64,000 bases of DNA. Origin: Paramacrobiotus metropolitanus (lineage: Eukaryota > Tardigrada > Eutardigrada > Parachela > Macrobiotidae). Position 1 is the stretch's first letter. Every line of letters starts with the position of its first letter. This document shows positions 1 to 46,097 of this stretch, one piece after another. A program made the position numbers and the translations under genes. The notes beneath the pieces are model-generated. The model was not told the DNA's origin. It saw nothing but the letters and a program-made list of their open reading frames with translations, and ran no database searches. The stretch lies in the NCBI RefSeq assembly GCF_019649055.1, contig NW_026570221.1, forward strand, positions 124,001 through 188,000, in the 5' to 3' direction.

Positions 1-17
1 TGTGGAAAATTGCATAG

Positions 18-566
18 GACGAGGCTTTGCTTTACCGCTTAGAAACAAAGTACATCGATACACTGTCCAAATACAGCGTCTACGACGTCACTGGCGCTCC
101 ATCGCCAGTCGAGTTCTTTCGCCAGCGGAATTTCAACATCGTAAGTCTTCAAGCGTAACTACATTTCAAAGAACATTTAGTTTGATGTCGACCGCTCTCC
201 TGTTCACATCAAAATGGCTTTAGTACGGGCTTTGGAAGTTTTGGGGTGCATGAAGATTTTACTATCTACAAAATCAACGCTGTAGTTAGTATGTTTTGGA
301 ATCCGAAGGATGTTTGCTTCTTTCTAGTGTTCGATGCCAAACCGGACGGTTCTGGGCTGAAGAAGGCCATGGACAAAGGAGTTCGCCTGGTGTATGCCGA
401 TATCAACTGTTTGTTGGGGATGATTAGAAACGGGACACTGCAGGATTGTATGGACCGGGCCATTATCGACAAGGGTGCTGAAAAGTTTTCTCTGCCGGGT
501 CAGGGCTGTGTGGATGTTACTGTCAGCATCCACCCGAAATACGGACGCATGATCCGTTTCTCTTAA
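18..566 (+). pseudogene. TIR-encoded unidentified gene, left copy, frameshifted
   Basis: Same gene as 12,965-13,514. A frame open from 18 runs to 140, where a GTAAGT donor starts a 40-base intron (141-180) ending in TTTAG. The second exon continues in phase 0. A G-run near 243-246 is one base shorter than in the right copy and breaks the frame; the downstream frame remains open to the stop at 566. Either a real mutation or a homopolymer error. Function not recognised. Confidence 0.6.
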
Positions 567-773
567 CCTCGGCGCACCATTCAACTACCATATCAGGGAT
601 TTATCAATCTCATGGAGGAAATCTACATCCAGCACTGGGGCCGGGATATTGTTGTCTGACTGGATGCTTCAATTTTTATTAGCATATCTTACTTAGCATT
701 TACTCTGTTCTGTTTGTCGTGAAAAGAAAAAAGGCTTAGAAGCCATTATTTGTGACAGTCTTAACTTGAAAGG

Positions 774-782
774 TATATAAAG
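774..782 (+). promoter_or_regulatory. TATA box of TBP-like gene, left TIR
   Basis: TATATAAAG. A start site about 30 bases downstream (around 804-810) leaves the ATG at 821, in strong GCCATGG context, as the first usable start, and excludes the TTG at 791. This decides the gene's start. Confidence 0.6.
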
Positions 783-820
783 GTTCCAAGTTGACACTGT
801 CGCAATTAATGCTCGTAGCC

Positions 821-1360
821 ATGGATATCCGTAACGTCATTCTTTCGGTCCAATTCGACAAAGCGATTTGTTTGGAGAAAGTTTGGAAATCATTTCCACT
901 TAATACAAAGTCTGTTAAAGGATTTAATTCTGTCACTTTAAGTTTAGAAAACAAAACGTTCTGTCAATTATTCCCTAATGGTAAGGCTATAATAAACGGT
1001 GCTAAAAGTATTACAGGGTCGTATTCACTTCTAAAATGTTATCAAATGATGCTTTATACTCAAGGCATAGAATTAAACATTAAGGACAGCAGTGTCGCAA
1101 ATACCGTTTGCACGTACAAGCATACACAGAACGTTAACTTGGTAAAGCTTTACGAGAAAGCAAAAAACTTCTCCGTGCAACGTCTACTAGAGCCAGAGCT
1201 GTTTCCAGCACTAAAATTAAGGCTTTCGTACGCTACCATTCATATTTTCCATACTGGTAGCTGTGTAGTCCTTGGTTGTACTTCTTCGGAGCAAATTCGA
1301 GAAGTTTTTGAATTTATAATAAAACTCCTAGATTCTTCAACTGAAAACTCCAGAATCTGA
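821..1360 (+). CDS. TATA-binding-protein-like factor encoded in Polinton TIR (left copy, intact)
   Basis: 179 residues, the size of a TBP core, with the two-lobe TBP saddle pattern. Lobe 1 has FNSVTL (F35) and LFPNGKAIINGAK (F51). Lobe 2 has EPELFPAL (F128) and IFHTGSCVVLG (F143), followed by an EVFEFIIKLL helix. These phenylalanines sit where TBP inserts two Phe pairs into the minor groove, so TATA-type DNA binding is plausible. Known of the family: TBP nucleates RNA polymerase preinitiation complexes. Inferred: it directs transcription of element genes, perhaps including its own, since a TATA box lies 39 bases upstream of the ATG. Start chosen at 821 (GCCATGG); an in-frame ATG at 809 is possible. 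The right-TIR copy is frameshifted near its C-terminus. TBP is not a core Polinton gene to my knowledge. The family call rests on motifs read by eye. Confidence 0.82.
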   Translation: MDIRNVILSVQFDKAICLEKVWKSFPLNTKSVKGFNSVTLSLENKTFCQLFPNGKAIINGAKSITGSYSLLKCYQMMLYTQGIELNIKDSSVANTVCTYKHTQNVNLVKLYEKAKNFSVQRLLEPELFPALKLRLSYATIHIFHTGSCVVLGCTSSEQIREVFEFIIKLLDSSTENSRI

Positions 1361-1462
1361 ATCGATACAAGAGTTTTTCAAAGTCAAAATCAGGAGTTTC
1401 TTGAAAAAAATTTCTCATAGATAAAGCATACAAATAGCGGTCTGAAAACGGAGTTTTTTAAA

Positions 1463-1532
1463 ATGGAAAAGGTGACTTTTGATTTCAGATTTAAAACTCC
1501 TTGTTCGCTTTATATTTCTGGTCCAACTATGT
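1463..1532 (+). pseudogene. Duplicated 5' end of packaging ATPase
   Basis: Exact inverted copy of the ATPase start at 12,069-12,000. It encodes about 23 residues up to the middle of the Walker A loop (GPTM), then ends at the TIR boundary. It has no downstream ATPase sequence and is a by-product of the inverted duplication. Confidence 0.85.
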
Positions 1533-3877
1533 GCTGAATGCGCCCACCAAGGTCTCGATTCAGCAACTCCATCCATTGCGTGGCTTGAACGCTGGTGCGT
1601 CGGTTGCGGTGGGGGCCATGAGCTGACAACACAGCTAACTTTTCAGGTTCCAGATGGAACGTGCGGTAATACTTATTGCAGGCGGAAGACATAGTGATAC
1701 TGTCCAGCGGGTTCAGATTAGTGAGAGCGATGAAATCCTCTACAAACTTGAGGGCACAGCGTCGGAGAACGGTGACGTCATTCGAGCAGTACGACATGAT
1801 TTCTGCACGAAAGTCGAACTGTTCCCCCGCAGCGGCTTTAGTTTCGGCATGCCACTTTGGGAAATCTTCTTTATCGTTCTTCTTTAGACCGTCAAAAACG
1901 TACATTACCGGTTCAGGCCACGGCAGCACTTTATCCCAGTTCTCAGGTCGATTAAAGTGATGCGGAAAATCACCTTTCTATACTTCCACCTCCAGACCAA
2001 CTGCTTTGGGCAAACTGCTGAGTTTCATAGGCATAAAATTCAGTGTGTCACGGGAACAATATTTAACGAACGGTAGCGCAGCTCCAGAAGCTGGGTTCCC
2101 CTCTTGATGACTTCCACACCGCGTAGTTTATTGCCCAAAAGGTGCTTTAGGAGAAAGTGCCCGTCATATCCCCGGAAGTTATGCGCAATGATGGTATGAT
2201 GGTTGTGCTGCTCTGAAAACAGCCATTCTCCAAACTTCTGTCCGACATCCTTGGTCATTGGTTGACCATCCGCCGGAAATCGGAATTCCGTACCGTCTTC
2301 GTACTGGGCCACAACACAACTTGGAGTATGTCCATTGACCGGATCATTGTACGTCTCATAATCGAAGAAAATGTATCGCTTCGGCGGCTCTGGTTTATCT
2401 GGTAAGGTCGGTAAAGGCTTTGGAAGGACTTTTATGAAACACTTATGCGTGGCTTGAGGAACCCACTCACGGCAAACTGTGCAAAACATCTCCCCACACT
2501 GGTGGTTACCATTTGGACGACGTGTCAAGTTCACAAAGCGGCGGCAGTCTTTACAGTAAAACATCTGGGAACAATAGGTTTTTCCGTTACGGCGAACAGC
2601 TTTGTGGATGGTGAAGCATTCCTGGTTGTTGAACGTACGGCGGCAGTCGCCACAGCGAACAACCACCCCTTCCACACATTCACTAACTGACCGATAACAA
2701 AAGCGACAGTTCCCACCGCATCGATGCTGCTCCTTGTGACTGTACGGCTTGTCACACTCTAAGCAGAAGTATGACGAGTTGAAAATACCGGTCACCGTAG
2801 TCACGAGGTCAAAGTGATTCTTCTCCAACAAGACAAAGATTTCCTTCATATCCTTTGTTTTCTTTTCCGGCACACGGGCGATAATGGTATTGCCGTGATC
2901 CGCCGAAATAACTTTAACCTGGAATTCGGGAAAGCATTCTTCCTGGATGGCACTCAGGTCGTTAAGGTTGTAGCACCGTCCCAACGGTAAATCAGACAGC
3001 TGGATAATTTCTCGGGCATGGCCTGTCAGCTTGTTAATTCCTTTCTCACTGTAGAGGTGCTTCCACTGGCTTTTGTACGTTCCTTGAGCATCATGCGTCA
3101 AGCGGTACTTGCCCGAGTACAGCGCTGCTGGTAGACAATAGTTATTGTGCACACGGACAGTAACAATGGACGTGCTGAAACGTTTGGCGTCGCGCGCTAC
3201 GTGACGATGTAAAAACCTCCAGTTACCACTACTCGGCATAATAGTGCGAAAAATCCGGATTGAAAAGGTATCGTCCAGCACCATCCGCCCGGAGTTGGCC
3301 TTGGTACATACAGCAACAAGGTCGTCGACACTGAAGTCCGACAATTTCCGCATAGACAAGTAAATTGGGAATTCCAGCGACGCACAGCTAATGGAAATGG
3401 TACCACGGTCAGATGGTTGAAACTGAGCCACGCAGAGATTCAATATGGATTCCAGCAGTAAAGGCAGAAGCAAGACTGTTTCTTCCTGAGAATAAATACG
3501 CGGCAGGGCGGCGATTTCCACACGGTACTCGTACTCGGTGCTGTTGAATTTCTTGAACTGACGCTCTTTGTTTTTAGTCAGGCTGAAGAGTGCTGAGAAA
3601 TCCGGAATATCACTAATTTTTTCAAGCGTCTGCAGATATATTAGAATAAGAATGCTTTGAAGATTATGAAAATAATAAAAAAACAAAATTAGAGTGTAAC
3701 TGCATCTAGAGTAGATTTCCTTGTAATCAGTTTACAAAACCGACTTGTTGGTTTTGCGAAAAACTAACTATAACAAATTCAATTTTCGGTTTTATTGAGA
3801 AAATTTATTCTTATTTTATTAATTCGTTAGCTTACTAGTGGGTTTTGCGAAGCTGCATCTGGAATGTCAATGTCCAT
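1511..3877 (-). pseudogene. Protein-primed DNA polymerase B, truncated by left TIR and frameshifted
   Basis: Polinton PolB would replicate the element from its termini. Exon 1 (3,877-3,836) starts at GCCATGG and ends at donor GTAAGC. A 206-base intron (3,835-3,630) ends in CTGCAG, and exon 2 continues in phase 0. Exon 2 has the Cys/His-rich region (CxxC pairs, about residues 310-420 of the open segment) and exonuclease motifs Exo I (FFDYET), Exo II (HNFRGYD) and Exo III (YCSND). Breaks: a one-base loss near 2,050-2,058, a TAG at 1,980-1,978, and loss of everything after 1,532, where the TIR begins. The polymerase palm and fingers motifs are therefore absent. The last residues before the stop at 1,511 are read from TIR sequence. 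The family is certain; the intron is inferred from splice signals and phase. Confidence 0.9.
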
Positions 3878-4110: not shown

Positions 4111-4610
4111 GTCATCGAAAGCTATTGCTCTAACTGGGACAAATCCGTATTATCAAGGTGGTGTACGTCAAAACAGTATTGTTCTAAGTGGGTCAGATAC
4201 GTATTTATAGCTGGTTTTCATCAAAACAACCTTTGTTCTAAGTGGATCAAAAGGCTGACTCAGCTATTGTTCTAAGCAGGACAAATCCGTATAAATAGTT
4301 AGTGTTCATCAAAACAACTTTTGTTCTAAGTGGGTCAAACCCGGATTAACAAGCTGGCGCTCATCAAAACAACTTTTATTCTAAATAGGTCAGGCTGACT
4401 CAGCTATTGTTCTAACCAGGACAAATCCGTATTAATAGTTAGTGTTTATTAAAACAACTTTTGTTCTAAGTGGGTCAAACCCGGATTAACAAGCTAGCGC
4501 TCATCAAAACAACTTTTATTCTAAATAGGTCAGGCTGACTCGGCTATTGTTCTAACCAGGACAAATCCGAATTAACAGTTAGTGTTCATCAAAACAAACT
4601 ATCGGCAGCA
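4110..4610. repeat. Internal tandem repeats of the Polinton
   Basis: About 60-base units built around GTTCTAAGTGGGTCAAA, AGGACAAATCCGTATTAA and TCATCAAAACAAC. They are arranged so that roughly 139-base blocks recur (for example starting near 4,321 and 4,460). Units vary by a few substitutions. No long open frame. Function unknown. Confidence 0.8.
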
Positions 4611-4619
4611 TTGCTCGAA

Positions 4620-4985
4620 GTATGTCAAACAATTAACTCGTATCATCAGTAAAAGTAAAATTGCAATCCCATAAAAATTTATCAATTTTTTGTAATTTTT
4701 AGGCGTATTACTTTTAACAGACGCTTTATTAAATATACATTAATAAAAATTAGCAACACTCATTTACCAAAAAGCATTGAAATATAACATATTTACAAAG
4801 AATAAGTTAACGTTTTAACGATGCAGTTAACGACATGCTATAACAATACTCAGTTCTGATTTAGATGACTTTGAAAACAAGACAGATTTCGGAATTTTAG
4901 TGTTTACAACGAACATAATTTTAAATAAGTTAAAAATTATATTTAATTTATCACGTTTTAATTTATTTAACGAAAGGTCACTCAC
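4620..4985. other. AT-rich spacer downstream of acidic-repeat ORF
   Basis: Mostly A+T. On the minus strand it would be the intron or 3' region of the ORF at 4,986-5,270. No convincing acceptor or exon identified. Confidence 0.35.
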
Positions 4986-5420: not shown

Positions 5421-6170
5421 TCATAACATACAGCATTTAACAAATAAAATTGTATTCCACTCCCAGACACGAGCCCGACAAATAGGACAATGATACATAC
5501 GCATAGAACACGCCTCACAGCAAGCTGCGTGACCACAAGGTTGAAATGCACACTTTATATCGGCATTCAAATAAATAGTACATTGCGGCTTCTCTGAAGT
5601 CTCTTTACGCTCAGCGTAGACGGCAGCCGCCGCGGTGGCCACTTGCTCCGATTTCGCAAAGGCTTTGGCGATGATTTCTTCCGCATATTGTAATCCTTTT
5701 TCCTGTTTCACGAAGCTGCAGTTGTACGACCCAACACCATGACGCGCGTGTTCCTCCCATGGAATATCTTCAACCTGCCAGTTTTCCAGATGAATGTTAC
5801 AAGAAAAACACTGGACCCGATCCTTTGGTCCAGTAAAAAAGAATCCCGCTTCGGCCATTTCTCGGGGGTGTTGTTTAAATGTCCAGTTGTAAAATGTAGC
5901 GAATCTCGCTTTAACATCAGCCATTGGGGAGTGTTTCAAAGATCCAACTCTGGGACAGTCGGTTGCTTCCATGTCGTGTCGCAGTACAAGGTTTTCATCC
6001 CCTTCCCAGTCATGCGCAGTCCACGCACAATATGCACAACCGACTTCATCGGGAAACTGCTTAAAAAACAGACCGGCAAGTACCAGTCTGGATGGAGCCG
6101 TCAAAGGCCATGGCCAACTGACAAATGACCGAACACGGTTTTCAACAATTGTCAAATCTGGTCGCGCCAT
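5421..6170 (-). CDS. Inhibitor-of-apoptosis protein, two BIR domains plus variant RING
   Basis: About 249 residues from the ATG at 6,170 (AAAATGG context); an in-frame ATG at 6,251 would add 27. BIR1 has CAYC, then W, then H-x6-C (HDMEATDC). BIR2 is canonical, with CFSC, W, EEH and C. The C-terminal RING reads CTIY, CGH, CxxC, CPIC: the second zinc-binding Cys is Tyr (TAT where TGT is expected), so E3 ubiquitin-ligase activity may be reduced. Known of the family: BIR proteins block caspases and are carried by baculoviruses and other large DNA viruses. Inferred: it delays death of the host cell during element replication. A TATATAA at 6,214-6,208 lies about 40 bases upstream of the ATG, so it may have its own promoter. 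Frame intact. Confidence 0.88.
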   Translation of the reverse strand: MARPDLTIVENRVRSFVSWPWPLTAPSRLVLAGLFFKQFPDEVGCAYCAWTAHDWEGDENLVLRHDMEATDCPRVGSLKHSPMADVKARFATFYNWTFKQHPREMAEAGFFFTGPKDRVQCFSCNIHLENWQVEDIPWEEHARHGVGSYNCSFVKQEKGLQYAEEIIAKAFAKSEQVATAAAAVYAERKETSEKPQCTIYLNADIKCAFQPCGHAACCEACSMRMYHCPICRARVWEWNTILFVKCCML

Positions 6171-6207
6171 TTTGAACGAGTGAAGTTCATTACACGCTTC
6201 GCGAGCG

Positions 6208-6216
6208 TTATATATT
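6208..6216 (-). promoter_or_regulatory. Possible TATA box for IAP-like gene
   Basis: AATATATAA on the minus strand, about 40 bases before the ATG at 6,170. It overlaps the stop codon of the upstream membrane protein. It favours the 6,170 start over 6,251. Confidence 0.4.
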
Positions 6217-6426
6217 GTTGGTATCGCCAGTTGGTACTGGCGATGAGTCATCACTCAGCATTACGTCTAGTACATCTTTTGTCAGCTGGTTGGATTCCGT
6301 TATGCGGGTTACGTTGGGCTTAGCAAAGTGGCCACATATTTCTAAAATATTAAAAATCAGTAATAAAATGGTGATAAGAATTCCAAAAATAATAGAAATT
6401 ATCTCTTTGATTGTAGGTTTATCCAT
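6208..6426 (-). CDS. Small single-helix membrane protein
   Basis: 72 residues. One strongly hydrophobic segment (about residues 8-32, IISIIFGILITILLLIFNIL), then a polar acidic tail. Its ATG overlaps the end of the protease by 8 bases (ATGGATAA). Its stop overlaps the possible IAP TATA box. Position in the capsid gene chain suggests a virion or membrane-remodelling role, but no family is recognised. Confidence 0.6.
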   Translation of the reverse strand: MDKPTIKEIISIIFGILITILLLIFNILEICGHFAKPNVTRITESNQLTKDVLDVMLSDDSSPVPTGDTNNI

Positions 6427-6919
6427 GATTTATTAGTGATTTTATGAATTCGTTGTCTCTTAATTTTGTGCTCATACGGAAGAATTTATTGATAAATTTG
6501 CATACGAATTTATCGTTTACCCCTTTATGCTTGGTGAATGCCGACATCAGATCTTTATACGAAAAACCGTAGCATCGCAGTAATACATAAAACATACAGT
6601 ACTGACCGCATACGGTGCTGTCGATGTTTTGTCTTGTAGTATTGGACATAATGACGTAATCATCACCTATCCATTCTGCAATATCCGACGAATATTCCGC
6701 AGGATTACGGCCATACGAATCAAACGCTTCTAACATGTTTTGACGAACGCAGAAGAAAGCCACCCAGTGCTCACCGGGACTCCCCGTTTTTTGTGTGTTT
6801 ACGATTTATGCACCAGGGTATTGTTTTTCTGGTATATTATCACTAGAAAAAACACCAACAAAAATATCACGAATTTTGGAATCTGAATAAAGGGATTTTT
6901 AGATTTCTAAATTATTCAT
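6419..6919 (-). pseudogene. Adenain-like cysteine protease (PRO) with two in-frame stops
   Basis: Maturation protease of the adenovirus/Polinton type, which cleaves capsid-associated precursors. The frame starts at the ATG at 6,919, in a 4-base ATGA overlap with the capsid gene. It contains TAA at codon 7 (6,901-6,899) and codon 38 (6,808-6,806), and is then open to 6,419. Catalytic features are in the open part: GEHWVAFF (His), FDSYG (acidic residue) and TVCGQYC (Gln and Cys nucleophile). Sequence between the stops still looks coding and stays in one frame, so these are point changes rather than an intron. Decay is most likely; readthrough is an alternative (see findings). Confidence 0.85.
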
Positions 6920-7998
6920 GGCGCAAAATCAAAAAGTACTTGTCTATTATTGTTTATTTCAATAATATTATCGTAAACTAGCATGGCGATACATACAGCT
7001 GCTTCTGGTAATGGTTTGGCAAAACGCATGCTCATATTTAAATTACCTTGCCGAATGAGCGATAAAGCACCACGCCCTGTATCCCTAAAGCCAAATAGAG
7101 TCATAACCTTGGGTAACTGACCAATAACAAGGTTGGGCCAAGTATGTTGCTGCTGTCCAGCAAACAGAGTGGTTTGCCGCATGGCAACACGTTTAATGTG
7201 GTACTTGGCATTTGTTGAAACTAACTGCTTAGTTAAAGCCCCTAGAAAATCGGGCGATGGCTCGTATTTTCTAATTTTTAAACGAGGGTTTTTGATAATT
7301 ACAGACTTTGGTTTTGATAAATCGCTGTCCGTCATAAAGACTAGACCGTTTTTGTTACGCACTAATTTTATGCTCAACTCGACACCTGGTATCAGTGGTT
7401 TGTCCTGTTGAAACAAATCACAATGCAGCTTTCCTGATAATTGCAGTGGGCGGCACGCTCGAAGCCACATTCGTCTTAACTCTGCTCCTTTGCTAAAAAA
7501 GATCTTTTAATTGTTAACTTTGGCTTAGTAATATGGATCTTGCTTCCACAGTAATGTATCCATGGCGAACCCAGACAGTTGTAATTGTGAAGCCTGCGCT
7601 TGCTTAGTGTAGCCTAGAAGATTTTCAATGTACCCCCGCATATGGTACATGGAGCTGCTGTCAGAAATATTACGACCACCCAAAGTGACAATTACCTGTT
7701 CAAATAAACTATCGAGAATATTATTTACGGTTGTCAAGCAGGCATCATCCGTGGGCATATCCCCTTTAGAGTCAGTTACATACAGATCACAAGAAAATCG
7801 GACATCTGCCAAACTAATAAGTTCAGTTTGACACGGGGCAATGGTAAAAACATAATCGTTGGATGTGTCCGACGGGGCTTGCGTTGGCCCGATATCATAA
7901 TCGCGGGTATTCCACCTTTCGGTAAGAGTCGCTGGAAGATAAAATAAATGGCTCTCTAGGAGCATAGAAGGTTCGGAATCGCTTTCAATAAGTGCCAT
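6916..7998 (-). pseudogene. Major capsid protein (double jelly-roll) with two in-frame TAA codons
   Basis: Polinton MCP, which would form the icosahedral shell. The ATG at 7,998 shares a base with the upstream stop (TAATG). The first 157 codons cover the N-terminal jelly-roll (TLGGRNISDS, IENLLGYTKQAQ). TAA follows at 7,527-7,525 and 7,509-7,507, then the same frame resumes: LSGKLHCDLFQQDKPLIPGV, KLVRNKNG, then YHIKRVAM, to 6,916. Conserved character runs straight through the stops, so the gene is one frame with two nonsense codons, not two genes. Total about 360 codons, shorter than usual MCPs; some C-terminal-domain sequence may be missing. Confidence 0.88.
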
Positions 7999-8369
7999 TA
8001 TACTTTGTCTTTAAGTGCATCAATTGCAAGTTGTCGCTTTGTAAGGACTACTTTGCGTCGTTTTCGGCCCTTAATACCCGATCCTTGCTGTTGTTTCAGT
8101 TTGTCACTAACATGTTCTACAGCTTTGTCAATTGCCGATTCCACAGCTTTATGGGCCATATTTTTCATGTGCGGTTGGGCTTTTGTTATTAAATTGCTTA
8201 TATGGGGCGCGGCTTTGCTGAAAACACCTTTAGCAAAACCGATAACTTTCCCCCAAAAGCCAGCACCGGACATGGGGGCACCGCGGTATACCGGCATCCC
8301 AAACCCATGTTGCCGGCTAAAGGCCTGTAAATAACGATTTTCATCAAACTTGTGCTCTTGAAGTACCAT
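7998..8369 (-). CDS. pVI/pX-like small virion protein
   Basis: 123 residues. The N-terminus has GFGMPVYRGAPMSGAGFWGK, a Gly-rich segment like those of small Polinton/adintovirus proteins compared with adenovirus pVI/pX. An amphipathic helical stretch (about 40-95) and a basic tail (KGRKRRKVV) follow. Likely a membrane-active or DNA-condensing core protein inside the capsid. It starts 3 bases after the penton stop and ends in TAATG with the MCP start. Frame intact. Confidence 0.65.
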   Translation of the reverse strand: MVLQEHKFDENRYLQAFSRQHGFGMPVYRGAPMSGAGFWGKVIGFAKGVFSKAAPHISNLITKAQPHMKNMAHKAVESAIDKAVEHVSDKLKQQQGSGIKGRKRRKVVLTKRQLAIDALKDKV

Positions 8370-8372: not shown

Positions 8373-9101
8373 TCAGCGTTTCTTGGGTCGAAAATGTAAC
8401 TTTATTATCGTGGTACCGGGATGAAACGATACTTCTGTCCCTAAATCATCTGCGAGTTTTAATTCAATGGTCTGAAAGGTGTGTTCGGCAAGTGGCACAT
8501 AAAGCGGATTTTCGTAAATTAATGTAGTCTCGCGTGCGAGAACTGGCGACGGTTGCGATTGTTCGCACGCGAACGGTACCATTGCATCGCCGACGAACCC
8601 GTGCTCAATAATGTCGCAATAAACATGCACAACACGACTCTGTTTGCCCCGTCGTAAGTGGTACGTTTGACCACCGGCACCGGCGTAAAAGTGCTCTTGC
8701 AATAGACCCAGCGCCCTCGTATACTCTGATCCCTGAAACGTGAGCTCGGCATCAGGATTTACCACCAGCTGTGCGGAGCTACCATTCACGTCAATATGTC
8801 CAAAGATGGTGTCTTTGTCACGCAGTAGAAGGTTTATTTTCCGAATTAGTTGATTCTCGTCATTGTATGACTCTTTATTTAAGTACCGACTGTGTCTCGG
8901 CGTAGTCGTGGTTTTAACTAGCACTGCCAAACCCTCAGTAAACCTGAGACGCATCGGTGGTAAAATAATTTCGGAAAGACCGACTTCCCAGTTTCCTTCA
9001 AGATCAATACCTTTGGCTAGCAAAGTTGTGAATTTTCCACAACGATTTGCGGGATAAATATTGTGAGATGCGGAAGACGGTAGTGTCATATAAAAACTCA
9101 T
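8373..9101 (-). CDS. Minor capsid (penton, single jelly-roll) protein
   Basis: 242 residues from the ATG at 9,101, which overlaps the integrase stop (ATGA). The N-terminus SFYMTLPSSASHN, followed by an N-terminal strand pattern (FTTLLAKGIDLEGNWEVGLS), is characteristic of Polinton penton proteins. The C-terminus ends in a basic FRPKKR. It would occupy the five-fold vertices of the capsid. Frame intact; next to the pVI/pX-like and MCP genes, as expected for a capsid module. Confidence 0.88.
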   Translation of the reverse strand: MSFYMTLPSSASHNIYPANRCGKFTTLLAKGIDLEGNWEVGLSEIILPPMRLRFTEGLAVLVKTTTTPRHSRYLNKESYNDENQLIRKINLLLRDKDTIFGHIDVNGSSAQLVVNPDAELTFQGSEYTRALGLLQEHFYAGAGGQTYHLRRGKQSRVVHVYCDIIEHGFVGDAMVPFACEQSQPSPVLARETTLIYENPLYVPLAEHTFQTIELKLADDLGTEVSFHPGTTIIKLHFRPKKR

Positions 9102-10153
9102 TTTAGATCTTCTTTGTTTTCCCAACAGTCGTAAGCGGGGCCGTAACCGTACCAACGTATAAGGTATTGCTGTTTTCCCTTGTACATTCTCTCCCTTAAT
9201 ATACGTGATATACGATGAAACGGTCGCTCGGTCATAATAAATTTTGACAGTTCGCTGGCATAAAAATCTCCATCAATTTTCTCACCTCCTAGGTCCTCCA
9301 AAGCGTAAATGTAATGATTCTGTCGTTTTTTAACTTGTACAATTTTAAAAATTTCTTCAGTGTAATTGGTTTCGTATCCCTTTTCGAACGTCTGCTTGCG
9401 TTTTGCTATACGCACGTGATCCCCTACCTGAAAAATAGGATTTTTTGCTTGTGGCTCTTCTATCATATCTTGACGTATAATGCGCGCTTCATCTACATCC
9501 ACTTGACTGGGGGCAAACCCTGTACTCGAGTGAACAGAATTATTATATAATTTTAAAATCTCAGGTAAAATATCGAGGTACTTGTAAGTATTATTGTCTG
9601 TCATGTACACGTAAAGACGTTCTTTAATTGTTCGGTTAAATCGCTCTACCATGGCACATTTAACATCGTCGTTCTTTGTTGTAAAAAACCTGATATTGTG
9701 ATCAGTAAAAAAGTTTTTCAGTTGTTTATTCACAAATTCTTTACCGTTATCGCTTTGACAGCGCAGTGGTCGATCAGATTCTTTATAAATATTACATAGA
9801 GCACGAATAATTTTTTCGGGTTTCTTTGATTTGACGGGCTCGGCCCAGCCGTAGCGAGAAAAACAATCGACACATGTCAGTAAATACTTAACGTCTTTAT
9901 TGTCATTCACAAATTTTTGCATATCTGCCAAGTCAATTTGGTGCTGGTCACCAATATTAAATGATAAAATCTTCCGACGTTTAAATTTTGACCGAAAAGG
10001 TTTATGTTGAGTATAAGCGTCTTTACTTTGCAAATACTCTTCCACTTGCTGACGAGAAAATCCATGATTTTGCGCTTCCCGGTACAAACGCTCGATGCCT
10101 CCCAGACTACCAGGATTAGAAGCATCTAGATAAATATTGTCCAGTGTTGCCAT
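9098..10153 (-). CDS. Retrovirus-like integrase with C-terminal chromodomain
   Basis: 351 residues from the ATG at 10,153 (TAATG overlap with the upstream gene). Catalytic DDE residues are visible: QIDLADM (D), CQSDNGKEF (D) and VERFNRTIKERL (E). An N-terminal substrate-binding region with DASNPGSLGGI and SKDAYTQHKPF precedes the core. A chromodomain (about 310-351, FHRISRILRERM...YLIRWYGY...CWENKEDL) ends the protein and could target insertion to modified chromatin. It inserts element ends into host DNA. The frame is fully open, the best-preserved core gene here. Confidence 0.96.
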   Translation of the reverse strand: MATLDNIYLDASNPGSLGGIERLYREAQNHGFSRQQVEEYLQSKDAYTQHKPFRSKFKRRKILSFNIGDQHQIDLADMQKFVNDNKDVKYLLTCVDCFSRYGWAEPVKSKKPEKIIRALCNIYKESDRPLRCQSDNGKEFVNKQLKNFFTDHNIRFFTTKNDDVKCAMVERFNRTIKERLYVYMTDNNTYKYLDILPEILKLYNNSVHSSTGFAPSQVDVDEARIIRQDMIEEPQAKNPIFQVGDHVRIAKRKQTFEKGYETNYTEEIFKIVQVKKRQNHYIYALEDLGGEKIDGDFYASELSKFIMTERPFHRISRILRERMYKGKQQYLIRWYGYGPAYDCWENKEDLK

Positions 10154-11121
10154 TATGCGTAGCTGAGCCAACCACCCTTCTGTGTCTTTTGCTTCTTTTT
10201 AGGAGGACCAGTAGATTTTGTGGTTTTACGCCTTAATAAGTCATAGCTCTTTTCAACGCCATTCTTGAGGGGGCGTGTTTCCGTTGGTTCTGTATACGTC
10301 AACGCTTTGAGTGTCGGAGCCGCTGGTAAGGACTTTGAAGTTGATGGGGCGGGCAAAGCATTTAAATTTTCCGGTACAGGTAAGGCCTGTGAAGTCGAAG
10401 GGGCCGGTAAAGCCCTGGATGTAATCGCTTTTCTATCGGGAACCTTATACGGAGCCGCTTTTTTGCTGCGTGTAATTGGACCAGAGCTTCGCGGTGCAAC
10501 CACAACGTCAGTCCGGTCTGTAGGTAGCGACACGGGAAGTGGTTCGTATTCGGGAGGTACATACTCCAATGACCCATCATCAGGAAACTCTACGACGGGT
10601 GAGGATGGTAGCTTCTTTTTTGGTTTTTGCCCTTTGGATATTGGCTTGGGGCGTGGACTTTTATACACATGTTTTACCAGTGTCTCTCTAGGTACATATT
10701 GTGGTACGTATTGTACAACTGAATCACGTTCGATATACTGTACAACGGGATCGCGCTCGATATACTGCACAATAGGTTCGCGTTCAATATATTGTATTGT
10801 GGGCTCACCTTGGATATATACCGGCTCACTTGGTAGATACTGAATAACCGGAGGTTCGGTCGCTTGTGTTGATCCATCAGTAAGTAGGGGCGCAGCTTGA
10901 GTACCATAGTTTCTTTGCGAAGGCACGCTTGGTATGTGTTCGTTAACTTCAGATCTTATAACCCGTGGTTCATAGTCTGCAGGCTTAGTCTGATACGCGG
11001 CTCGAGCCAGCAAATCATGAGTCATGGCACTACGAATTTCTTCAGCCTTTTTCCATGATGTGGATTTAGTCTTGCCGGGCGCAGAAAATTCGGACTCTGG
11101 CACAAGAACGTAGGTCTTCAT
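10153..11121 (-). CDS. Proline-rich repeat protein of the Polinton gene chain
   Basis: 322 residues, low complexity. The N-terminal part is polar. Residues about 90-150 carry a roughly 9-residue repeat (VQYIERDPV and variants). The middle is Pro/Lys-rich, and a second repeat of LPAPSTS type lies near 235-280. The C-terminus is basic and ends KGGWLSYA. It begins in an ATGA overlap with the upstream ORF and ends in TAATG with integrase. No enzyme motif. Position suggests a virion-associated scaffold or core protein, but the function is unknown. Confidence 0.7.
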   Translation of the reverse strand: MKTYVLVPESEFSAPGKTKSTSWKKAEEIRSAMTHDLLARAAYQTKPADYEPRVIRSEVNEHIPSVPSQRNYGTQAAPLLTDGSTQATEPPVIQYLPSEPVYIQGEPTIQYIEREPIVQYIERDPVVQYIERDSVVQYVPQYVPRETLVKHVYKSPRPKPISKGQKPKKKLPSSPVVEFPDDGSLEYVPPEYEPLPVSLPTDRTDVVVAPRSSGPITRSKKAAPYKVPDRKAITSRALPAPSTSQALPVPENLNALPAPSTSKSLPAAPTLKALTYTEPTETRPLKNGVEKSYDLLRRKTTKSTGPPKKKQKTQKGGWLSYA

Positions 11122-11438
11122 TTTGTTACAAATGATGCAACTAGTGTTCCTAGAATTGGAAGTAGAGCAGCTAAGAATCCTCCTTTTTGCGCTGAAATTG
11201 TTCGCTTTTTAACGTGTGAAAGTTTTCTGTCGGCTAAACGCTTAATTATCGGGGCAAAACGTCGTGCTCTGGCTAAATCAACTTTACTCAAAGCCGTTGG
11301 TTGCTTCACCAAATTTAAACAAGCTTCTTCAATTGCTAAAATTTGTTTTTTAGAAGCAACCTGTAAAAAATATCTACGCTGTCTTGGATTCATAATTTCC
11401 AAAGCGCGTAGTATACTGAGAACGTCTTCTGGATTCAT
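11118..11438 (-). CDS. Small Polinton protein with hydrophobic C-terminal tail
   Basis: 106 residues. A helical, basic body (RALEIMNPRQRRYF, KRLADRKLSHVKKR) is followed by QKGGFLAALLPILGTLVASF, a Gly-led hydrophobic tail seen in small proteins near Polinton integrase/ATPase genes. Probably a membrane-interacting virion component. ATGA overlaps at both ends link it to the ATPase and the Pro-rich protein. Frame intact. Confidence 0.7.
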   Translation of the reverse strand: MNPEDVLSILRALEIMNPRQRRYFLQVASKKQILAIEEACLNLVKQPTALSKVDLARARRFAPIIKRLADRKLSHVKKRTISAQKGGFLAALLPILGTLVASFVTK

Positions 11439-12069
11439 TTTTCCACGTATATTTTCCGGTAGTCAAATATGTTTGACTGTAGCCTTAGCTTGTCAGGTGT
11501 ATCAGGACGCAGATTTATTACCAAATAACCAAAAGGTGCCTTTATAGCCTTTTTGTATGCTTCACACAAATGCGGCATACCTAGCTGGCGAGAAAGTAGT
11601 TTAATCTGTTGTACATCACGTACAGATTTAAATAAAATTAAATATTGTGAGTTAAGAGAGATATCTCTCATGCTTTTGCCTTGTTTGTATAAATTTTGCG
11701 ATATAAAGATAACGGAAACATTTTTATGATGCACATCTCTAGTAAATATTGTCGAGCACTTTGCGTTTTTTGATATTTCTTCCATGAGATCATCAAGAGT
11801 AAGTAGCGTAGGCGTATTTCTATCGAAAAAATTCTCATCTTCCAAAATTTTTTTCATTCCCGGCAGCAATTCGATGGATTATCAAAATTATTGAATGCCT
11901 CTTGCCATGTACCGTACGCATATACTATACGTATGGGCGCGGGTGTGAAATTATTGGGAATACTCCGTAAAAGTTGCATCGTAAATGTCGATTTTCCGGA
12001 CATAGTTGGACCAGAAATATAAAGCGAACAAGGAGTTTTAAATCTGAAATCAAAAGTCACCTTTTCCAT
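11435..12069 (-). pseudogene. FtsK/HerA-type genome packaging ATPase, one frameshift
   Basis: The motor that would pump element DNA into capsids. The ATG at 12,069 leads to Walker A (SGPTMSGKSTF). A single-base loss near 11,870 shifts the frame. The second segment then has Walker B-type TLLTLDDLMEE and the sensor-like VIFISQN, ending at 11,435 in an ATGA overlap. About 210 codons in total, normal for the family. The first 70 bases lie inside the right TIR and recur at 1,463-1,532. The frameshift could be a sequencing error. Confidence 0.9.
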
Positions 12070-12212
12070 TTTAAAAAACTCCGTTTTCAGACCGCTATTT
12101 GTATGCTTTATCTATGAGAAATTTTTTTCAAGAAACTCCTGATTTTGACTTTGAAAAACTCTTGTATCGATTCAGATTCTGGAGTTTTCAGTTGAAGAAT
12201 CTAGGAGTTTTA

Positions 12213-12710
12213 TTATAAATTCAAAACTTCTCGAATTTGCTCCGAAGAAGTACAACCAAGGACTACACAGCTACCAGTATGGAAAATATGAATGGTAGCG
12301 TACGAAAGCCTTAATTTTAGTGCTGGAAACAGCTCTGGCTCTAGTAGACGTTGCACGGAGAAGTTTTTTGCTTTCTCGTAAAGCTTTACCAAGTTAACGT
12401 TCTGTGTATGCTTGTACGTGCAAACGGTATTTGCGACACTGCTGTCCTTAATGTTTAATTCTATGCCTTGAGTATAAAGCATCATTTGATAACATTTTAG
12501 AAGTGAATACGACCCTGTAATACTTTTAGCACCGTTTATTATAGCCTTACCATTAGGGAATAATTGACAGAACGTTTTGTTTTCTAAACTTAAAGTGACA
12601 GAATTAAATCCTTTAACAGACTTTGTATTAAGTGGAAATGATTTCCAAACTTTCTCCAAACAAATCGCTTTGTCGAATTGGACGGAAAGAATGACGTTAC
12701 GGATATCCAT
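12213..12710 (-). pseudogene. TBP-like factor, right TIR copy, C-terminally frameshifted
   Basis: Inverted copy of 821-1,360. It is identical in both lobes, including all four groove-inserting Phe positions. A T-run of 4 instead of 5 changes EVFEF to EVLNL and stop, removing the last 14 or so residues of the final helix. It may be partly functional or reflect a homopolymer error. Confidence 0.75.
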
Positions 12711-12748
12711 GGCTACGAGCATTAATTGCGACAGTGTCAACTTGGAAC

Positions 12749-12757
12749 CTTTATATA
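12749..12757 (-). promoter_or_regulatory. TATA box of TBP-like gene, right TIR
   Basis: TATATAAAG on the minus strand, the mirror of 774-782 and 39 bases before the ATG at 12,710. Confidence 0.6.
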
Positions 12758-12964
12758 CCTTTCAAGTTAAGACTGTCACAAATAATGGCTTCTAAGCCTT
12801 TTTTCTTTTCACGACAAACAGAACAGAGTAAATGCTAAGTAAGATATGCTAATAAAAATTGAAGCATCCAGTCAGACAACAATATCCCGGCCCCAGTGCT
12901 GGATGTAGATTTCCTCCATGAGATTGATAAATCCCTGATATCGTAGTTGAATGGTGCGCCGAGG

Positions 12965-13514
12965 TTAAGAGAAACGGATCATGCGTCCGTATTTCGGGTG
13001 GATGCTGACAGTAACATCCACACAGCCCTGACCCGGCAGAGAAAACTTTTCAGCACCCTTGTCGATAATGGCCCGGTCCATACAATCCTGCAGTGTCCCG
13101 TTTCTAATCATCCCCAACAAACAGTTGATATCGGCATACACCAGGCGAACTCCTTTGTCCATGGCCTTCTTCAGCCCAGAACCGTCCGGTTTGGCATCGA
13201 ACACTAGAAAGAAGCAAACATCCTTCGGATTCCAAAACATACTAACTACAGCGTTGATTTTGTAGATAGTAAAATCTTCATGCACCCCCAAAACTTCCAA
13301 AGCCCGTACTAAAGCCATTTTGATGTGAACAGGAGAGCGGTCGACATCAAACTAAATGTTCTTTGAAATGTAGTTACGCTTGAAGACTTACGATGTTGAA
13401 ATTCCGCTGGCGAAAGAACTCGACTGGCGATGGAGCGCCAGTGACGTCGTAGACGCTGTATTTGGACAGTGTATCGATGTACTTTGTTTCTAAGCGGTAA
13501 AGCAAAGCCTCGTC
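12965..13514 (-). CDS. TIR-encoded unidentified spliced gene, right copy (open)
   Basis: Two segments in one frame: 13,514-13,392 and 13,351-12,965. They are separated by a 40-base phase-0 intron (GTAAGT to TTTAG). The first segment reads YIDTLSKYSVYDVTGAPSPV and onward to FFRQRN. The second includes DVDRSPVHIKMALVRALEVL, FLVFDAKPDGSGLKKAMDKG and PGQGCVDVTVSIHPKYGRM. About 170 residues visible. The frame is closed by TAG just upstream of 13,514, which could be an intron acceptor (GCATAG), so a further 5' exon may lie to the right. The ATG at 13,318 gives a 117-residue alternative. Not recognised; no known motif. Confidence 0.5.
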
Positions 13515-13531
13515 CTATGCAATTTTCCACA

Positions 13532-13790
13532 CGTCACCGTTCGTTTGGTCGTTGGCAAGCGAAACAATGGCCTATGCATTTGTCGTCTTGATAAGCCGTT
13601 ATTCAAAAACTAGTTTTGTATATTTGACGCTTACGCGAACTTCTCGGTACCATTGGAAAACTGCTGGATGAAGTTTGTCTGTGGTTATTTGGATAACAAA
13701 CAATGCGATTATTGTGATAATTGGTCTAATTGGTCTGATTCAATGGTGCACGGGTTAGGTAACCGCCGACCAAGTAATCTTCACGGTGGG
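13532..13790. other. Sequence beyond the measurable TIR
   Basis: No supported gene. It could be host DNA or the outer part of the TIR; the left partner lies outside the window. A 5' exon of the TIR gene could be here but none is evident. Confidence 0.4.
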
Positions 13791-13794
13791 CTGC

Positions 13795-13990
13795 CATATC
13801 AGCGGTCCTGTCTCGGCCTCAGTCTCGGTTTAAGAGCAAGCAGACAGACTAGCGGTCCTGCCTCGGTCTCAGTCTCGGCTTAAGAGCAAGCAGCCAGACT
13901 AGCGGTCCTGTTTCGGGCTCAGTCTCGGTATTGGAGGTGGAGTCAGCCAAGCAGAGTAGGCAGCCAGACTAGCGGCCCTGTCTCGGCCTC
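13795..13990. repeat. GC-rich minisatellite, about 55-bp units
   Basis: Repeats of GACTAGCGGTCCTGTCTCGG followed by CCTCAGTCTCGGTTTAAGAG and AGCAAGCAGCCA, at least four imperfect copies. It merges into the CCAAT array. Confidence 0.8.
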
Positions 13991-13997
13991 AGTCTCG

Positions 13998-14185
13998 GTT
14001 TCGACCAATCAGAGATGCTGCCGGACTAGCGGCCCTGTCTCGGCCTCAGTCTCGGTTTCGACCAATCAGAGCGAGGGGCGCGTCTGGCCAATCAGAGAGG
14101 AGGCGTGTCTGACCAATCAGAGAGGAGGCGTGTCTGACCAATCAGAGAGGAGGCGTGTCTGACCAATCAGAGATGCTGCCGGACC
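13998..14185 (+). promoter_or_regulatory. Array of six CCAAT boxes (25-bp minisatellite)
   Basis: GACCAATCAGAG recurs with CCAAT at about 14,004, 14,062, 14,088, 14,113, 14,138 and 14,163. The last four gaps are 25-26 bases, with unit GACCAATCAGAGAGGAGGCG plus TGTCT. CCAATCAGA matches the NF-Y consensus. Whether it drives transcription is unknown. Confidence 0.6.
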
Positions 14186-14189
14186 AGTG

Positions 14190-15320
14190 CACATACTACT
14201 GACGTTTCGTCGACACCGACATCCGCTGGGGCACTTGCTGTCATTGCGACAATGCGTTACCGCGGGACATCGTGCGTAGCGTCGGTGGCCTGCAGTAAAA
14301 TTACTTTGTGATACCTTTGCGCTGCTACCGATACTTATGGCTACTGAGAATAGCTACGGTCGGACTTACGCAACGATGCTTCAGTGTAAATTCCTCCCAT
14401 CAGGGTGCCGATATGGTTTTGCGCAAAGGAGATTTCCATGGCACCAAATGCAGTGTCCTTTGAGTTTTCCGCTTGAGGAACGCGCGTCAAGACGTCCTAA
14501 TACGAATAATTATGTTAACGAACTCTGCGAACCATCTTAACGACCCAAAGCCAGAAACCTATCTATATAAGCAAACGAATGCAATATTTTCCTGTATTTG
14601 GCGAACTTACCACCACCAAAACCACGAAAGCCATATAAAAGATGGCTAGGGATTGAAAATGCATGATTGAAATAATTAAAAACCAAATCAATAACCAAAA
14701 AACTAACTCTACTCGAGCAAGAGCCAAGGTATGTAGTTGCCGATTATAATGGTTTAGTAGAGTCAGGTATGTATTGCCAGATGCAAGAGTTATAGTTTTC
14801 TAATCGTATAGCCGTTTGAGTCGCCCATTATGATAAGTGCATGAGAGAGGGTCGTTTGAGTGAACTGTCTATATCTAAATCATTATAATCCAGAAACCGA
14901 ATTTCCTTCGGTTTTTTTTTAGAATTGATTAAGCAAGAATACGGTTTGAAGTACTTTAAGTTTTTAAAAAAAACTGAGCCATTTTTTTGGGTTGCGCTGT
15001 AAAGAATTCCGTGACGAAAGTGATTTTGTCACGTCACCGAAGTCACTGCACTACACCGCAAAGCGACATTTTGCACATGAGTCGTTTATACGACGATGGC
15101 GCAGCCGCACGAGTTGGCAGTGACCGCGTTTCTGGCATAGTGCAGCGGCTTCGGTGGCGTGGCTTCTATCGCTATCACCACGGATTTTTTTACAGCACAA
15201 TAGCAAAACAGGCTGAAACATTCTTAAAGATTTCAAGTACTCTGCGAAGAGTGCGTACTCCTTGCTTTGAAGAAAAAAACCAAAAACACTCGGTTTCAGG
15301 AACGACTGATGGACCATTTC
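14190..15320. other. No supported gene
   Basis: Mixed-composition sequence with short non-conserved frames only. The stretch 14,820-14,960 (ending in CCGAATTTCCTTCGG and poly-T) resembles 63,180-63,290, so it is probably part of a dispersed repeat. Confidence 0.4.
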
Positions 15321-43600: not shown

Positions 43601-44166
43601 TCGCTGATTTTTTTCAGTTCTACGTACCTCTGCTTGTGCTAATGTACCTCACGAAGCACAAGGCTACCAGATCCAACAGATTTTCATAAAGCATGCCGGG
43701 CTTCTTCTTCACCAAAATATTGGTTCTGCATGTGAACCGCTCCTCCACTGAAAGCCTGCGGCTACACTCAGACCATACGAGTATGACTATGCACTGAGAC
43801 CAGCCCGAGCGATTTTGCCCTCTCTTGTGTCTTTTGATAGGGAGTAGAGAGGACAGCCGACGACCAGTAGCCACCGGTTGAAAATGGCGTTGTTGAGGAG
43901 AGTCTGCCGACCAGACTGGATCTCACTCAAACCATTTGCCATTTTTATTGCGTTTGGAGTGCGAAGCTATGCTGATCTGCAGCGGTCTGATTGAAATCGC
44001 AAGAAACTACCTCTACTAATACTGCATCCGATAATTATAATTCCAGAACGTTTCAATGAGAAAATCCTAGAGTAACCCAGGAAGTGGATTGCGATTGTTA
44101 AAGCAGTGAACCTGTCGACGTTGTTTGTTGTACGATCATCCTTATGTCCTCACCAATCGTGGGAGA

Positions 44167-45810
44167 ATGAGTCACCTTCTGGTGGTAGCTGCCGTGGCTG
44201 TCTGCTTGGCCAGCTTTATTCCGAACAGTCTCGCCTGTGTCTGGACGCCGAAGAGAGCCCAGAAGCAGAAGGAACCCGTGGATACAAGTGAGTTACTGTT
44301 ACTAACCAGACGAAGGGGAAGTCTCCCAGCTCCTGGTACCTCTTCTGTGTTTTTATTACGGGTCTCGAAAAACACGGATAATGGTCCACACCCGCTTTTT
44401 AACCGGAAGCGCTAGCTCCAGCTTCTTTACCGAAAGAAATCCCTTGCTCGGCGCGGGAAAAGAGAGTCTCGGAGTGGGCCCGCTTTTTAAACAACTTATA
44501 TCAATTTCACAATGAGAATTATCATTTTTACGACCACGATAAAAACTGCCATTACTTTTATCAGAGAAAAGAAAGAGGCAGTTCTAATTCTTTTTATTCC
44601 TTTTTCGCCAATATCCTCAATAATCAATTTTCTACAGCAACCATTGGCTTTTTTTCCTCGTTTTTAGAAATGAGGTAATTCCTGTATTGATATGACTAGA
44701 CTATGTATGTAGTACTCTGTACGTACAATTGGTCAGTGCGTCTCCGAGTTGCTTAAGGATATGCGGCTGCAACCTGTTGCGTTGTTCGTTGATTTCGCTT
44801 AGCCATATTATGTAGTTCTCTCTTTAGTGGACGAGATTCTGAACGAAGCGAAGAAGCGCAACAGCAACGGCACGATGCATTTGCGGCGATTCGGGCGAGG
44901 TCCCTCGGTGGCGGGCTATCCAAACACGGAATGGCCGCCGCAGACGGAGCTGATTCAAGCGCCCGAAGGCGGCACGCTCTTCCTTCCTTGCAACAACACG
45001 AACAGGCTGGTATGTTCATGTACAACCTACGAGACATTAGGACATTACCACCAGTCTTTGTGTTCTGGTTGACGCTGCAGGTGTTCTTCTGACGTATGAC
45101 CACGTATGTACACTCACCGGCATTAAAATTACTCACAGGTTCCCCACACCAATATTCCACCGGCGTGCACACGCAATGGACTCTTGCTCACGCTCAATAA
45201 TGCCCCAGTATTTCGACACGAGTTGAATCAAAGACATTCTTATTGTAACTGCACAAATAGAACAGGTACCCGGCAAGGACTTGGGTGGCACTCGGTCAGT
45301 GCGGGCAACTACGATCGGGACAGCGGGGCGTTTACCATCGCACTGGATAATTTCACCTACGCCCACAGCGGTCTGTACGAGTGCCTGCACTCCAACGGCA
45401 GCCAGCTGGTGGTGACGAAGCGGTATTATGTCAGCGCGACCCTCTTCCGCCCCAACGTCTTCCAACCGCCCATGCAGAACGTCACGGTCCGCCACGGCGA
45501 CCCCGCGGCGATGGTCTGCGCGGTCCGCTTCAACTTCCTCCCCGGAAAACTGGCCACCCGCTTCCTGTGGCGCAGCGAACGCCACTGTATGATCGCCGAA
45601 TCCATCGCGGAGGTCGCTAAAAAGGCCAAATTGTACTGGGGATTCTATGGAGGTTTTGATTTCAACGAAAATGACGACGGTGGCTGTAGCTCCACAATGA
45701 CGATCCAGAGCGTCACGTGGCAAGATGCCGGGCGGTACGAGTGCTGGTTGCGTATCAACGATCGTCTCGACGAGTGGATCATGCAGGAAGCATATTTGCA
45801 CGTCGTTTAA
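44167..45810 (+). CDS. Secreted two-Ig-domain protein, intact three-exon gene
   Basis: Exon 1 44,167-44,287 (donor GTGAGT, phase 1), exon 2 44,828-45,009 (after CTTTAG; donor GTATGT, phase 0), exon 3 45,139-45,810 (after CACAG). 324 residues. A signal peptide (MSHLLVVAAVAVCLASFIP) is followed by a Lys-rich linker. Ig1 has APEGGTLFLPC and the D-x-G-x-Y-x-C-type HSGLYEC. Ig2 has AAMVCAVRFNF and DAGRYECWL. Several NxT/NxS glycosylation sites (NGT, NCT, NFT, NVT). No membrane anchor, so probably secreted. It could bind ligands or have an immune or matrix role; no ligand can be inferred. Convergent with the 48.9-46.8 kb paralogue. All splice phases match that gene exactly. Confidence 0.85.
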
Positions 45811-46091
45811 TCACAGCCAGCGTTTGGCTAACGGTTCAACAATTGCGGGTACATCGCGTTTGGTTAGCATGTTTCGTTTCTTTGCAATGGTCGAGTGTTT
45901 TCGTTGGGGCAGTGTTATGTGCAACCCAAAAAAGCTTGTTCGGAAATTGTGATGCGACGCAACTCGGTGGGATCTGTGACGCATTCCTGTGACCTTTATG
46001 AATAATATGACATGATATGAATTATTGGGGTTGATTCGATCCGTGTCGAACTTGTGTTTCGTCGTTGTACACGGTTCAGTTAGAGAGACTC

Positions 46092-46097
46092 AATAAA
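46092..46097 (+). terminator. AATAAA polyadenylation signal of the 44.2-kb Ig gene
   Basis: AATAAA 282 bases after the stop codon; plausible 3' end. Confidence 0.4.

Follow-up and report, generated by a model that had tools for sequence, protein, structure and literature searches.

A TBP-like gene of tardigrade Polinton-type elements and a candidate promoter motif before their virion genes

Introduction

Can a virus-like mobile element bring its own promoter-recognition factor into a cell? The question is raised by a 64,000-nucleotide stretch of the 169.8 Mb genome of the tardigrade Paramacrobiotus metropolitanus (C1:124001-188000), hereafter the window, in which a TBP-like gene lies within a mobile element. 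Wnt genes, as expected of an animal, occur in this genome. TBP is generally regarded as a universal factor of which cells have few copies, and it is not known to belong to the gene set of Polintons, Mavericks or adintoviruses. An earlier note on this DNA proposed that the gene is encoded in the terminal repeats of a Polinton, hence twice per element, that it is possibly self-activating, and that it allows virion-type genes to be transcribed selectively. The element lineages A-H referred to below are our own labels; eight were sampled, E-H thinly.

Results

The TBP-like gene and its fold

The left copy of the TBP-like gene lies at 821..1360 on the forward strand and encodes 179 residues; a second in-frame ATG is located 12 bases upstream, at 809. 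The Pfam TBP profile (PF00352) matched this frame in two stretches, covering both repeats, with 76.9 bits against a curated cut-off of 22.9 bits. Fold comparison revealed the TBP saddle of two pseudo-symmetric lobes, with 22-26% identity to TBPs in structural alignments, and the match was specific to TBP. The 179-residue frame with two TBP-type lobes reads as the earlier note claimed, and the four DNA-inserting phenylalanines that it listed as kept are all Phe (F35, F51, F128 and F143). The minor-groove asparagine pair, N5 and N94, is also present. An inverted copy at 12213..12722 on the reverse strand encodes 169 residues, without the last helix, and its T run is one T shorter than that of the left copy. 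The host TBP frame (L009, contig C4) seems one base short in an A run, so that homopolymer errors are possible in the assembly and the T-run difference between the window copies may be an artefact.

Organization of the element

The genes described in this section lie on the reverse strand. The PolB gene (1510..3686) loses its 3' part to the left inverted repeat, which truncates it; PF03175 matched 1510-1905 with 26.7 bits (cut-off 25.8), and a 1003-residue PolB frame of L042 matched with 147 bits (E 9.6e-43). The integrase (9098..10153) combines an rve core (PF00665, E 5.5e-11, 43.1 bits against a cut-off of 32.6) with a chromodomain (PF00385, E 2.4e-8). PolB and the rve integrase support assignment of the element to the Polinton type. 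Its likeness to Polintons/Mavericks and adintoviruses consists of PolB, the rve integrase with chromodomain and long terminal inverted repeats, whereas for the adenovirus-type protease and the A32-like ATPase there were only weak matches of relatives, below the cut-off. The probable cysteine protease gene (6419..6736) was assigned from a 166-residue frame of L022 (Peptidase_C5, E 0.016, below cut-off). The packaging-type ATPase was located in two parts, by tblastn across copies (11854..12069) and by comparison across copies (11435..11857), and the distant relative L031 gave a Pox_A32 match for it (E 7.7e-4, below cut-off).

A probable major capsid gene (putative MCP, 6916..7998) is broken into frames 7525-7998 and 6916-7470 and forms a single 449-residue frame in L022. 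Pfam gave no match for it and PDB sequences no meaningful one, and its name is our assumption from gene order. The 242-aa gene (8373..9101), which had no Pfam match, is probably a minor capsid gene, a name that we presume from resemblance; a single-sequence structure model of this second capsid candidate was uninformative (pLDDT 29). An IAP-like gene (5421..6251) has two BIR domains (PF00653, two stretches, E 1e-28) and a RING (PF13920, E 1.4e-8), and is possibly an apoptosis blocker carried by the element. IAP-like frames were also observed in five of six lineage A-B stretches. Between the PolB and IAP genes lies a tandem array of 140-base units (4252-4671), and outside the element the window contains a cluster of repeats, both direct and inverted, that have diverged to 73-93% similarity (44120-56278). 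In lineage C (L043 and L025 on C103, and L027) PolB is on the strand opposite to the virion genes; in lineage A it is on the same strand.

Most virion genes overlap their neighbours by one to four bases, and by our reading of the sequence, intron-like GTAAG...AG stretches precede PolB in the window, L041, L042 and L033. As no RNA polymerase was recognized in the element and PolB is seemingly spliced, transcription of the element genes presumably takes place in the nucleus and relies on the host's RNA polymerase II (Pol II). The overlapping virion genes, together with the intron-like stretches, likewise point to nuclear transcription by Pol II.

Terminal repeats and number of TBP genes per element

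The right terminal inverted repeat (TIR) occupies 11994..14200 on the reverse strand, and its left partner comprises window 1-1538 and C1:123357-124000 outside the window. The repeats are 99-100% identical within the window and continue beyond it at a lower identity of 95.7%, giving an element that extends from about -643 to 14200, with TIRs of about 2.2 kb and termini 5'-AGTAGTATG. The 6-base flanks differ, indicating no target duplication at this rearranged copy. The copy is also damaged, with PolB truncated by the left repeat and the capsid frame broken. In five other lineage A copies (L019-L023) similarity ends near window 13571-13583, and positions 1-660 of L019 (the C7 copy) hold what we read as an apparent upstream gene, with a TATATATAAG box (TATA) and an intron before a 117-aa frame, which is absent from the window copy. 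Owing to this stop in similarity and the extra sequence in L019, the window repeats look like the product of a rearrangement, which we infer to have copied the ATPase-side end onto the PolB side. The outer TIR (13567-14200) contains GC-rich tandem units (cctcggcctcagtctcgg). Such units also follow PolB where the C7 copy ends (L041 5164-5639), adjoining the same terminus.

TBP adjoins the ATPase gene in the C7, C113 and C103 copies. The fetched PolB sides of these copies (L041-L043), read to the terminus in C7, to 2.2 kb beyond the PolB frame in C113, and in C103 to a 237-base inverted-repeat arm 99% like the other end, gave no TBP match. The earlier note's two TBPs per element were therefore not borne out as a rule. 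TBP does occur in both inverted repeats of the window element; this is particular to a rearranged copy, in which the right TBP has 169 residues. Facing TBP pairs 9-12 kb apart were found only at C1 (the window), C36 and C13 among the at least 200 loci described below, and other close pairs among the matches listed were tandem, divergent, or facing at 2.9 and 19.9 kb (C140).

TBP loci across the genome

Two genome searches, in which the best 150 of 292 and the best 150 of 493 candidates were scored, revealed at least 200 distinct TBP-like loci besides host TBP (C4:406165-406662). A stop codon was present in 30 rows among the best 150 candidates of one search, and the eight best rows had open frames, all of lineage A. 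Among the matches listed, a TBP row was located within 15 kb of 123 of the 145 probable-capsid loci and 132 of the 150 ATPase loci, where the chance expectation, computed within 10 kb, is about 2.4%; conversely, a capsid or ATPase row lay within 15 kb of 158 of 200 TBP loci. The capsid and ATPase loci without a TBP row in these matches (22/145 and 18/150) may partly result from the scoring of the best 150 candidates.

Twenty 10-kb stretches were inspected. TBP was beside the ATPase gene in 13 (lineages A-D), back to back with it in three (E and H), and on the same stretch as PolB in three (F). In L035 (lineage G), the inspected stretch contained neither the ATPase gene nor PolB, but gene searches placed the capsid and ATPase genes within 8 kb of TBP. 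TBP diverges faster than its neighbours within the same element, with 48% in L025 compared to 69% for the integrase and 69% for the capsid gene. An identical 172-aa TBP protein was observed at four places (C81, C110, C134 and C185; L011-L014 and L035), and these identical frames evidently mark a recent burst of one lineage. The best explanation of the distribution is that TBP is a stable core gene of this animal Polinton group and no passenger.

Phylogeny and selection

A tree was built from 17 element TBPs (of the at least 200 loci), the metagenomic protein P0002 and five cellular TBPs. The 18 mobile rows shared one side of a branch with support of 100/99, and host TBP fell outside, grouping with Arabidopsis, Chaetomium and Encephalitozoon (97/97). 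TBP was present in all eight lineages sampled. Because the tree program gave a warning about the meeting of long branches, it is uncertain how deep the split between element and cellular TBPs lies. P0002, on a 1,098-base contig, was the one related metagenomic protein; no relatives turned up in IMG/VR, scanned with TBP alignments A1 and A5 and with capsid alignment A4, or in the phage collection, and TBP had none in PHROGs.

For lineage A TBP, dN/dS was 0.25 over 28 pairs and 0.12-0.28 in four close pairs. It was 0.14 for A-B and F1-F3 pairs, at high dS (1.9 and 1.3), and two more distant pairs, with saturated synonymous sites, had pN/pS of 0.42 and 0.46. These values indicate that the element TBP is under purifying selection.

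A captured host TBP, or a dead passenger spread by transposon copying, could come to mind, since TBP is also a host gene, the window copy is damaged in PolB and capsid, and 30 of the best 150 TBP rows contain a stop. However, the element TBPs form one deep clade apart from host TBP and are under purifying selection, with open frames in the eight best rows, shared residue changes and a related metagenome protein, which makes such an origin extremely improbable. Its recent-capture version is already refuted by the tree, in which the element TBPs are a clade of their own. The recently captured host fragment that the earlier note had named as an outcome against it was thus not what was found, nor was the other such outcome, a lack of any significant match to the TBP fold. 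A capsid or ATPase row lies no more than 15 kb from 158 of the at least 200 loci.

DNA-facing residues and C-terminal tails

Residues are given below in yeast TBP numbering. Among the 18 mobile rows, the inserting phenylalanines were conserved at F99 (17/18, one Y), F190 (17/18) and F207 (18/18), while F116 was F in nine and Y in nine; the asparagines were kept at N69 (16/18) and N159 (18/18). Three positions differ from the cellular rows, all five of which have L114, T124 and T215. The mobile rows have Q at position 114 (18/18), N (15), I (2) or S (1) at 124, and L (17) or M (1) at 215. The window TBP has Q, N and L, respectively, and so is devoid of the cellular groove residues, which we take to be a recognition feature of cellular TBP and not of the fold. 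In the TFIIB patch, E186, E188 and L189 were kept in 12, 17 and 12 of 18 rows, respectively. Basic helix 2 was not conserved; the basic helix is the surface used by TFIIA, NC2 and Mot1. An altered yet working DNA reader would look like this, although the pattern does not prove altered specificity.

Changed DNA-facing residues next to an E188 kept in 17 of 18 rows would also suit a decoy, that is, an element TBP that competes for TFIIB or TATA boxes and dampens host transcription while host TBP reads the element promoters. The ordinary TATA box before the TBP gene in lineages A-C is compatible with this host shut-off. Nevertheless, a pure decoy would not need inserting phenylalanines, which are constrained (F207 in 18/18, F99 and F190 in 17/18), and a conserved TATA-like motif precedes several virion genes, so that we regard a decoy as quite unlikely.

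C-termini were read for five lineage D proteins. In three of these (L030 and the near-copies L038 and L046) the tail is 176-250 residues long and combines basic, NLS-like clusters with acidic-aromatic modules that occur repeatedly, for example EWEKWFADFDKEI and DLFDWFERV. L029 has almost no tail, and the tail of L048 is net basic. From its composition, the acidic-aromatic tail in this part of lineage D looks like an activation domain.

The promoter of the TBP gene

The box that the earlier note had observed upstream of the TBP ATG is present as TATATAAAG at 774..782 on the forward strand, with its first base 47 bases before the ATG at 821, and is mirrored at the right copy. It was found at -46/-47 before TBP in 8/8 compared copies of lineages A-C. 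L029 and L030 have TATAAAAG farther upstream, L038 has no such box, and none of the seven lineage E-H loci read showed a TATA box ahead of TBP. Self-activation, as proposed earlier, is not supported as stated; the canonical TATA box of the window gene would be equally suited to host TBP.

In lineages A-C, the TATATAAAG box is the loop between the 19-base arms of an inverted repeat, located in the window at 750..768 and 787..805 (forward strand) and forming 18 pairs in the pairing comparison. In the alignment of copies, 95.3% of 106 cells were paired and seven pairs had changed on both sides, whereas slid versions of the arm alignment were at most 51% paired. Folded as RNA, the repeat gave a z of -4.6. 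The 106 cells included six G.U (sense strand) and five unpaired, none of the latter A.C. The pattern leans towards a repeat that acts as RNA rather than DNA, on few events. By eye, the repeat was seen in lineages A-C only.

The position of the TBP gene near the element end, and of the A-C TATA box inside a covarying inverted repeat that might be a replication or processing site, would fit a protein that bends DNA near the element end for replication, packaging or integration instead of transcription. Against such an architectural role, the inverted repeat was seen in A-C only, whereas TBP is found in all eight lineages sampled; TBP has other gene neighbours in lineages E-H, and the fold match is specific to TBP. 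We consider this role distinctly improbable.

A motif upstream of the virion genes

Upstream sequences of 150 bases were compared in seven representatives of lineages A-D, comprising 39 of 42 possible stretches. ATTAAGG was present in 16/39 stretches (0.77 expected from shuffles) and TATTAAGG in 10/39 (0.21 expected). Because homologous upstream stretches are not independent, a second test was performed with no motif named beforehand. Nine genes, with 1712 codon triplets in all, were set against eight copies of lineages B-D, and the triplets were ranked by synonymous constraint; as some of these copies are close to each other, the ranks overstate independence and serve as a guide, not as probabilities.

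Among the four strongest separate constraint peaks, three were on ATTAAGG, ATTTAGG or ATAAAGG and the fourth on the similar GATTTAGC. The strongest triplet, ATA TTA AGG in the integrase gene (rank 1/1712), falls on an ATTAAGG motif (ATATTAAGG) at 9194..9200, 99 bases before the 242-aa gene; this and the following sites are on the reverse strand. A GTTGATTTA peak at 11274..11282 (rank 3/1712), in o106, lies about 161 bases before the ATG of o322; this peak (triplet GTT GAT TTA) resembles the ATTTAGG form without being identical to it. ATTTAGG at 8440..8446 (rank 5/1712) is 77 bases before the 123-aa gene, and the peak triplet of the 242-aa gene is GAT TTA GGG. ATAAAGG occurs inside the ATPase gene at 11539..11545, 107 bases before the o106 ATG (rank 11/1712; peak triplet GCT ATA AAG), and inside the protease gene at 6522..6528, 102 bases before a 72-aa frame (AAG CAT AAA, rank 25/1712). 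ATTAAGG (TATTAAGG) at 8069..8075 is 77 bases before the putative MCP gene (rank 27/1712). Before the integrase ATG, ATTAAGG (TATTAAGG) at 10231..10237, at a distance of 84 bases, lies in the o322 gene, where constraint was unremarkable (rank 140-171/1712, poorly aligned gene).

The motif differs between genes. In the window alone, ATTAAGG occurred three times in virion genes against 0.38 expected, a modest excess reached by 8/1000 codon shuffles, and two further ATTAAGG were found inside each TBP frame. In lineages E and F, TATTTAAGG lies 82 and 67 bases before the o106 gene (L031 and L045), and L037 has TATTTAAGA; L045 had no clear site before other genes. The conserved TATTAAGG-type motif before several virion genes gives independent support to the selective virion-gene transcription that had been proposed.

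The window sites fall within coding sequence, 77-161 bases ahead of the ATG of the following gene, and a TATA element there would leave an untranslated leader of about 45-130 bases. This position, together with the overlap of most virion genes by one to four bases, is also what a non-promoter signal within the coding sequence might show, for instance in RNA processing, reinitiation or codon pairing. The motif, however, is similar to the TATATAAAGG box that belongs to the TBP gene itself, and its occurrences fall in different reading frames and encode different peptides, and we judge a non-promoter signal unlikely while according it real weight.

Discussion

Starting from the observed TBP homology and fold, synteny, single clade, purifying selection, residue changes and conserved motif, we propose that an element-specific TBP, a stable Polinton gene, binds the TATTAAGG/ATWWARGG candidate sites before virion genes and engages host TFIIB and Pol II. 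We consider this proposal probable, with motif binding, the order of events and the recruitment of TFIIB and Pol II as its inferred steps. In an early phase, canonical promoters would be active and the TBP gene could be switched on from its TATA box by host TBP. In a late phase, the element TBP, whose DNA-facing residues differ from cellular ones, would read the TATA-like TATTAAGG/ATWWARGG sites before the overlapping virion genes and hand the late promoters on to the host's TFIIB and Pol II. The acidic-aromatic tail present on TBP in part of lineage D would serve as an activation domain. Host TBP might read the same motifs instead. The core of the earlier note, an own promoter factor with selective virion transcription, thus stands as the best-supported hypothesis, while its frame of terminal repeats, two copies and self-activation falls.

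A bolder form of this proposal is that the elements have a promoter code of their own that predates the split of the eight lineages. The rebuilt TBP (Q114, N124, L215, yeast numbering) would read TATTAAGG-type late promoters in coding sequence and drive host Pol II, with an activation tail added in part of one lineage. We hold it tentatively, at slightly less than an even chance.

The window protein has in common with cellular TBP (PF00352) the two-lobed saddle, the four inserting phenylalanines, both minor-groove asparagines and E188. It differs at L114 (Q), T124 (N), T215 (L) and in basic helix 2, and it sits in a mobile element. Virus-encoded TBP folds are also found in giant viruses, and the fold matches in BFVD included proteins of Heterosigma akashiwo virus and Mimiviridae and an abalone asfa-like virus B263R homologue. 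Most giant viruses bring an RNA polymerase of their own, whereas none was recognized in the Polinton element. In beta- and gamma-herpesviruses, the TBP-like protein vTBP (UL87/ORF24/BcRF1) works with host Pol II at TATT-type late promoters. The herpesvirus late genes appear to be the nearest known arrangement to the early/late model, by analogy of a TBP-like factor, no recognized RNA polymerase and a candidate TATA-like motif. The herpesvirus vTBP proteins are large and act in a multi-part complex, in contrast to the small Polinton TBP, which is recognizable by sequence. The frog herpesvirus protein Q14W31 was among the BFVD fold matches of the window protein.

A TBP gene cluster is reported to be present in 59% of mirusviruses and 0% of Nucleocytoviricota (PMC10132985). 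TBP genes are reported for mirusviruses themselves and, in a green alga, for elements derived from mirusviruses, but not for Polintons. The main text of PMC10120064 contains neither 'TATA' nor 'TBP', and a narrow literature search on Polinton and TATA-binding protein found no earlier report of TBP in Polintons. A TBP gene carried stably by a group of animal Polintons, together with a candidate class of promoters to match it, thus appears, tentatively, to be new.

At least 200 TBP-like loci lie in one animal genome, and for 158 of them a capsid or ATPase row is no farther than 15 kb away. The 17 element TBPs placed on the tree make up a single old clade whose DNA contacts are altered. If the proposal is true, a virus lineage without RNA polymerase would have gained a private promoter class on host Pol II, and a single animal genome would carry more than 200 TBP genes, with other element genes next to at least 158. 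The herpesvirus-like TATT-type late switch would then either have had a second origin or date back further than believed. The elements would offer a series of TBPs rebuilt in nature, along with candidate target sites, which bears on the ways in which TBP specificity changes, and they would help to study the timing of capsid genes in Polintons. A long-separate TBP of their own, with candidate start signals before the virion genes, suggests that these Polintons steer the host RNA polymerase.
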